DNA from: Desulfovibrionales bacterium
GTDB lineage: Bacteria; Desulfobacterota; Desulfovibrionia; Desulfovibrionales; Desulfonatronaceae
DNA length: 64,000 bases
NCBI GenBank assembly: GCA_007693505.1
Contig: REDL01000056.1
Span: 62,001-126,000, forward strand
Direction of reading: 5' to 3'
In this document: one piece after another, positions 20,307-49,315 of the stretch
How positions within the stretch are numbered: the first letter of the stretch is position 1
How the letters are laid out: each line of letters begins with the position of its first letter
Translations under genes and position numbers: made by a program
Notes under the pieces: model-generated
Databases searched by the model: none
What the model saw: only the letters and a program-made list of their open reading frames with translations
What the model was told of the DNA's origin: nothing

Positions 20307-20678
20307 TCAATTCTTGACGGTCACATCCACGGCGTTTTGGCGAGCGATACTGATTTCCTGGCCGCTCTCCTGTTTCACGAAGACGTGCATGAAGCCCATG
20401 ACTTCGTATTCTCCGTCGTCCAGGGCGGTGGTATCCCAACGAACCGGAAAAAACGTGTCCTGATCCTCGGATTCTCCGATCTTGATCCAGGTGCTTTGAC
20501 CTTTCTTCCGGAAATACCAGGGATTGGTGATCCGGATGACTGGCCCCTTGATGTTCAGCTCCGCAAGCTGCTTGGTTAACAGGTCGCGATCCAGATCTTC
20601 CCGGAGCAGGATTGTTCCGGAGTAGACCTGGGAAACTTCCGTGGGCACGATGAACAGCGGTCCCCAGTTGTAGGGCAT
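20307..20678 (-). CDS. Conserved-looking hypothetical protein, 123 residues
   Basis: The ATG at 20678 is fixed by AAGGAGG seven bases upstream; a longer frame from 20729 has no such support. The product is hydrophilic, without signal peptide or membrane span. It includes YNWGPLFIVPTEVSQVYSG, RITNPWYFRKKGQSTW and a beta-rich C-terminus ending AVDVTVKN. I do not recognise the family. It is flanked by two strong hairpins (20267-20299 and 20782-20822), so it may be expressed as its own small unit. Confidence 0.7.
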   Translation of the reverse strand: MPYNWGPLFIVPTEVSQVYSGTILLREDLDRDLLTKQLAELNIKGPVIRITNPWYFRKKGQSTWIKIGESEDQDTFFPVRWDTTALDDGEYEVMGFMHVFVKQESGQEISIARQNAVDVTVKN

Positions 20679-20781
20679 GGTGCACCTCCTTTTTCTGCAT
20701 GATGAGGGCGATCGACGCTTGGCGATCAATTTCTCGAGAATTCGGAAACAATCCCCCGATATCCAACAAAATCAAGCAACG

Positions 20782-20822
20782 CAACCAGCATGGAGAGGAA
20801 CGATTGTTCTCCATGCTGGTTG
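20782..20822 (-). repeat. Intercistronic hairpin, 15-bp perfect stem
   Basis: CAACCAGCATGGAGA (20782-20796) pairs exactly with 20808-20822 across an 11-base loop. It is 14 bases downstream of the permease stop codon and 100 bases before the next start on the minus strand. There is only a weak T-rich stretch after it. Probably a terminator or transcript-end stabiliser for the permease gene. Confidence 0.7.
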
Positions 20823-48811: not shown

Positions 48812-49315
48812 GCATGCTCCTTTCCTTCTCCGGTTCCCGGTACCAATGGCAGAGCCCAATGCCCTGCCACGTGTGCCCCACGGTGACCGGCACTGTTCCA
48901 ATCACAAATCACTGTATTTGTCACCTGGACCGGTCGCTCGGCAAGCCCTGTTCCTTTGTGGAGCAGGGCATTTTTGTTTTCACCAGTTTTTTTGCCAAGA
49001 CGGCTGGCTTGCCCTGTTTGGAACGGCTCGAAACTCCTTCACCGGTCTCGTAACATCAAGCCGTTGCGCCATAAAAACAGGAAGTTGTGCTCTTGGCGCC
49101 CGGCAACGGCTTGATGAACGATTCCTGGTTCAGTCAAACAGGCGAAGCCGGTCGATCCGTTCCAAGCAGGACAAGCCAGCCTTAAAAATTTCATGTAGTT
49201 ACGTTAGAACAAAAATGCCCTGATTTGTGGAGCCACCAGGGATCTTGTTGCATCTTCACCAAAGGATAGTCCAGGTATGACGTCATGTGACGAAAACGTG
49301 GAGGAATGAAATTGA
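48812..49315. other. Intergenic region occupied mostly by a palindromic element
   Basis: No reading frame here looks like a protein. The central ~260 bp form the inverted-repeat element described separately. The short parts on each side show no other feature. Confidence 0.6.
48955..49232. mobile_element. MITE-like long imperfect palindrome with terminal inverted and flanking direct repeats
   Basis: The two halves are complementary along their length. Outer arms CAGGGCATTTTTGTT (48964-48978) and 49208-49222 match 15/15. A middle block, 49002-49026 versus 49157-49181, matches 23/25. The inner arms CATCAAGCCGTTGC (49054-49067) versus 49103-49116 match 14/14. TTTGTGGAG flanks the element directly on both sides (48955-48963 and 49224-49232), like an 8-9 bp target duplication. 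It has no transposase frame, so it fits a non-autonomous miniature element. It lies between hisH and the patatin gene. Confidence 0.72.

Follow-up and report, generated by a model that had tools for sequence, protein, structure and literature searches.

The element between the patatin and hisH genes

A 259-bp element occupies positions 48964–49222 of the window (the whole 64,000-nucleotide stretch analyzed), between a patatin-like phospholipase gene and a class-I glutamine amidotransferase gene (hisH). hisH adjoins a His_biosynth gene, and all three genes are on the minus strand, with the patatin gene upstream and hisH downstream of the element. A target duplication directly bounds the element on both sides. 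The features of the locus are as follows.

48964–49222, plus strand: whole element, an ISAs1-type MITE of 259 bp (copies at other sites, empty sites)
48954–48963, unstranded: left copy of the target duplication, CTTTGTGGAG (9 of 10 positions identical to the right copy; length of 10 from 29 copies)
49223–49232, unstranded: right copy of the target duplication, ATTTGTGGAG (length from 29 copies)
48964–48982, plus strand: left terminal inverted repeat, CAGGGCATTTTTGTTTTCA (common to the copies and to the ends of an ISAs1 transposase locus)
49204–49222, minus strand: right terminal inverted repeat (same evidence)
49002–49181, minus strand (folded sense): conserved structured core (covariation, strand bias of mispairs, model match with E = 4.5e-24)
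49002–49031, minus strand: one side of stem P1, pairing with 49152–49181 (complementarity, covariation)
49152–49181, minus strand: other side of P1 (complementarity, covariation)
49030–49052, minus strand: internal-loop/P2 strand, plus-strand sequence GAAACTCCTTCACCGGTCTCGTA (near-invariant columns in alignments A1 and A2)
49117–49140, minus strand: internal-loop/P2 strand, plus-strand sequence AACGATTCCTGGTTCAGTCAAACA (near-invariant in both alignments)
49054–49116, minus strand: inner hairpin P3, stem 49054–49067/49103–49116 (14 of 14 complementary; compensatory changes in relatives)

The initial annotation described a full-length palindrome with three matched blocks and a flanking direct repeat, and these are present. 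The terminal block of the element, CAGGGCATTTTTGTT, is complementary to AACAAAAATGCCCTG at all 15 positions, GGCTGGCTTGCCCTGTTTGGAACGGCTCGA and TCGATCCGTTCCAAGCAGGACAAGCCAGCC are 90% complementary over 30 positions, and CATCAAGCCGTTGC and GCAACGGCTTGATG are complementary at 14 of 14. The direct repeat is 10 bp long with one mismatch, not 8 bp as first suggested, and the palindrome is not uniform but contains an asymmetric internal loop (49030–49052/49117–49140). Inspection of the open reading frames in the element confirmed that none resembles a transposase. The folding energy of the region was −137.5 kcal/mol versus −91.2 kcal/mol (S.D. 4.9) for 100 dinucleotide shuffles (z = −9.4), showing that the fold is not due to chance. 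A small P1 insertion at 49141–49151, GGCGAAGCCGG, is found in some family copies and missing from others, and serves as a within-genome marker of copy type.

Mobility and terminal repeats

A BLAST-type search of the host genome, a Desulfonatronum, found ∼15 full or near-full copies of 76–93% identity together with fragments, and congeners of the host carry dozens of copies, all counts being derived from genome searches. Flank identity over 29 copies peaked at a length of 10 (0.80), with values of 0.22–0.35 at other lengths and 0.25–0.29 in controls. The empty site of another host copy (L010) was found in a related genome (G002), where the two flanks overlap by exactly 10 bp at a single target. 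The window copy is also missing from the hisH-patatin junction of G002; the flanks there are collinear and the junction itself has diverged. The duplications and the L010 empty site demonstrate, more than imply, past movement of the family. The proposal that the element is a MITE is thus borne out: it is short, lacks a transposase gene, and has terminal inverted repeats, multiple copies with differing flanks, target duplications, and an empty site in a relative. As a MITE the element is real and ordinary; its unusual part is the cargo.

Comparison of the terminal repeats with known IS ends gave a match to those around an ISAs1-family transposase locus (L321) in a third Desulfonatronum (G007), which is bounded by CAGGACGATTTTATTCTC and, inverted, CAGGGCAAATTTGTTCTC. 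The proteins of this locus match PF14236, PF13808, PF01609, and NF033564, and its right end is identical at 18 of 19 positions to the end of a MITE copy in G006. ISAs1 has been reported to have CAGGG ends and a 10-bp repeat (PMC11946415). The element resembles ISAs1-family insertion sequences and MITEs in both respects and differs from them in that it lacks a transposase gene and its conserved structured core also occurs on elements with other tips. The suggestion in the initial annotation of an ISAs1 group with an 8-bp duplication is therefore upheld by the tips but not by the duplication length. An ISAs1-type transposase is the likely parent of the MITE, judging from the sequence of the tips. 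Parentage is nonetheless unproven because the L321 transposase is split into two frames and no duplication was detected around the locus, which may be a relative of the parent instead of the parent itself.

The ISAs1 transposases of the host genome and G002 (L323 and L322) have no such tips within the flanking stretch examined. A candidate full-length insertion sequence sought by CAGGGC tip pairs, with its ends spaced 2,960 bp apart in G006, was rejected because its open reading frames, judged by eye, do not look like a transposase. The ISAs1-type transposases of Desulfonatronum at L321 (841–2636) and L323 (826–2163) have an N-terminal domain matching PF14236 (Druantia protein DruA).

Other short elements with CAGGGC...TTTGTTCTC tips are present in the host genome at L111 (G000:C131:8682-8884), L101, and L102 (G000:C50:9478-9666 and 20604-20803), and further tip pairs ∼180–220 bp apart were found in G006. 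The core of the three host elements is unrelated to that of the window family and rich in ATCGAAATCG, so two or more different cores are found on ISAs1-type tips. Another MITE family (GTAACTGCTCAATAACT...TTGAGAAGTTAC, with GGATTCCGGCTTTCGCCGGAATGAC in its core) has inserted into members of the window family at L105 (G000:C7:28371-28816), L103 (G000:C125:33507-33933), L110 (G000:C109:11004-11562), and near L008. UYCCGG words occur in the core of this inserted family, which may be the MRSC-65-2 motif of PMC11109978.

A conserved structured core

The core consists of a variable outer stem, a conserved asymmetric internal loop, and a variable inner hairpin, the internal loop being the best-conserved part across relatives. 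Its helices are P1 (22 modeled pairs), a two-pair helix, P2, and P3, with a strongly conserved loop between them in which GA lies opposite GA; we infer that this GA/GA loop is kink-turn-like. The two-pair helix changes type between families, from CU/AG to GC/GC in the RNA sense, and reads by eye as GU/AC in the most distant forms. Changes on both sides were found for 35 of the 38 pairs in alignment A1. Alignment A2 also includes the distant forms; 85% of its cells pair, and its covariation score was 0.644 compared with 0.177 for shuffled and at most 0.222 for slid controls, all of these tests being on sequences related to each other. The first loop pairing given by RNAalifold (columns 36–39 with 124–127) was replaced by P2 (GGC.UCGU/ACGA.GCC, alignment sense) because distant relatives show compensation there.

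Mispairs in P1 are strongly biased. In alignment orientation there are 62 A-C and 1 G-T mispairs on the Desulfomicrobium side and 26 A-C and 5 G-T on the Desulfonatronum side. In these elements the tips have 7 A-C and 19 G-T (ISAs1-type) or 29 and 19 (GTAACT tips, below), and the inner hairpin shows a weak bias (18 A-C, 10 G-T). These counts come from related sequences and are not independent; it is the consistency over 18 columns to 0 that carries the argument. Read on the opposite strand the P1 mispairs are G-U pairs, placing the G-U type on the window minus strand. As P1 is biased and the tips are not, it is the core whose folding is constrained, and on a single strand, the minus strand of the window; this strand most likely folds as RNA, the usual reading of such a signature. 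No terminator or convincing promoter was found bounding the core. Read-through transcription would include it, since its folded sense agrees with both patatin and hisH.

The core is much more widespread than its tips. In G003, G005, G006, and other genomes it lies between GTAACT...AGTTAC tips flanked by 8-bp duplications (for example CCGAATTG, GTGTCTTC, CTTCTGTA, GCTGAATT, and GCGTGTTT). IS66 was rejected as the parent of these tips because PF03050 is absent from two carrier genomes, G003 and G006. Covariance-model searches scored 15 copies in the host genome, 17 in G002, 73 in G003, 7 in G006, 42 in G043, 51 in G031, 13 in G602, and 4 in G492; among the genomes of Desulfonatronum and Desulfomicrobium scored, the range is 7–73, and the 42 and 51 copies in two Desulfomicrobium genomes have unrelated stems. 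The core is present in 28 of 247 genomes of the order and, with strict filters, in 6 of 395 genomes sampled over the phylum. The distant forms extend to further families of sulfate-reducing bacteria, some within the order and three elsewhere in the phylum. When contigs from 84,980 species were scanned for an exact pattern, all records with the near form bore the name Desulfonatronum, Desulfomicrobium, or Desulfovibrionales, apart from one Proteobacteria bin, which matches a Desulfomicrobium genome. The core was not found in viral contigs or in phage or plasmid records.

At least four core copies stand head-to-tail with a period of ∼226 bp at L253/L257 (G012:C1:527429-528283), and close pairs or triplets also occur in G031, G035, G043, and G057. 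AT-rich copies from another family of the phylum (L305–L320, in G584, G602, and G317) have an outer hairpin that ends GCTTCA...TGAAGC, possibly a third tip type.

No Rfam family matches the core when covariance models are used at gathering or relaxed thresholds. The initial annotation had held that coverage by a conserved structured RNA family would count against a MITE; the element does in a sense carry such a family, but an uncatalogued one, and its identity as a MITE stands.

Interpretation of the cargo

The core can be compared with several known systems. ERIC and Correia/NEMIS are, like the element, dispersed intergenic palindromic hairpins that are possibly co-transcribed; they have another sequence and are not known to have an internal-loop motif of this kind. 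Tn3-derived TIMEs (PMC4133298) likewise have non-autonomous tips able to carry different passenger modules, but they have Tn3 tips and 5–6-bp duplications, and their passengers are genes or replication modules rather than an RNA-like motif. MRSC-65-2 and other mobile or repeat structured motifs (PMC11109978) are also multicopy, covarying, and inconsistently oriented to genes. MRSC-65-2 is described there as one long stem bearing a UYCCGG repeat. The core has instead a conserved asymmetric loop, and only 8 of 66 core copies contain two or more UYCCGG words, so the core does not fit MRSC-65-2. A literature search of partial coverage found no prior description of the core. Its newness holds against Rfam and the literature searched; the list of 250 mobile or repeat candidates in PMC11109978, of which the comparison covered MRSC-65-2, may bear on it.

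We consider it probable that the element is an ISAs1-type MITE carrying a conserved structured core, likely a selfish RNA, on at least two transposon chassis. An ISAs1-family transposase, the enzyme to which the tips point, would recognize the CAGGGC...TTTGTTCTC ends in trans and move the 259-bp unit, leaving the 10-bp target duplication; the movement itself is recorded in the empty site and the duplications. The passenger would be the core of ∼150–180 nt, transcribed from the window minus strand, perhaps mostly by read-through from neighboring genes. The RNA would fold into one long hairpin with the conserved asymmetric internal loop and its apposed GA/GA. Such an RNA might bind a protein or affect transposition or the processing of host transcripts. 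The core is the part kept over long times: the GTAACT-tipped copies with 8-bp duplications carry it too, and several families of the phylum share its fold. The change of chassis would occur by exchange of tips, which the shared P1 sequence suggests rather than records. More tentatively, the core may be a new structured RNA class of the Desulfobacterota (Thermodesulfobacteriota) that spreads selfishly by such exchange, riding ISAs1-type tips (10-bp duplication), GTAACT tips (8-bp duplication), and perhaps others, with a kink-turn-like GA/GA loop that would bind a protein to the benefit of the element.

Any single strand that folds would account for the strand bias and covariation, and the core might instead work as single-stranded DNA, one strand folding during replication, transfer, or transposition so that a recombinase, a Y1-type enzyme, or a transposase reads the conserved loop, as with integron attC sites or REP hairpins. 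We regard this as unlikely: tandem core arrays in some genomes agree with it, and PMC11109978 notes that such repeat motifs could function as DNA, but the 10- and 8-bp duplications point to DDE-type movement of double-stranded ends, and no recurrent recombinase or Y1 gene was seen beside the copies in open reading frame clusters judged from their sequences. That the element is an ordinary ISAs1 MITE with a functionless interior, its arms kept complementary by inter-arm copying and its conservation reflecting recent spread, is improbable. Inverted repeats can convert each other, and the Desulfonatronum copies are young, being up to 90% or more identical. However, the strands of the invariant loop do not form a palindrome with each other and are kept from one family to the next as the stems change, and the core is also retained on other tips. 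Inter-arm copying would yield no excess of a single mispair, whereas P1 has a ratio of 62:1, a skew absent from the tips of those elements.

A cis-acting RNA with a role in regulating or processing the transcripts of its neighbors, patatin and hisH at this locus, would suit the position of the element between these genes and its folded sense, and a long hairpin, once transcribed, is a typical substrate of RNase III. We hold this to be very improbable as the role of the core, because its orientation to flanking genes, approximated by long open reading frames, is mixed (32 co-directional, 26 antisense, 21 convergent, 15 divergent), no linked neighbor gene recurs beside the copies in clusters of neighboring open reading frames judged from their sequences, and the copy at the hisH-patatin locus is missing in G002. 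The effect on hisH raised in the initial annotation is possible, but the mixed orientation and non-recurring neighbors give no general pattern that indicates one.

Returning to the selfish RNA that we favor, bacterial MITEs are usually seen as empty shells defined by their tips, and in this element it is the interior that is conserved: a single fold is kept over several bacterial families, at up to ∼70 copies per genome, between unrelated transposon ends. If it acts as RNA, it would be a multicopy structured RNA class absent from Rfam and would provide a clear example of apparent selection on what non-autonomous transposons carry. The core offers a direct route to asking why such RNAs persist, and the covariance models and copy list make it testable in culturable Desulfomicrobium species.
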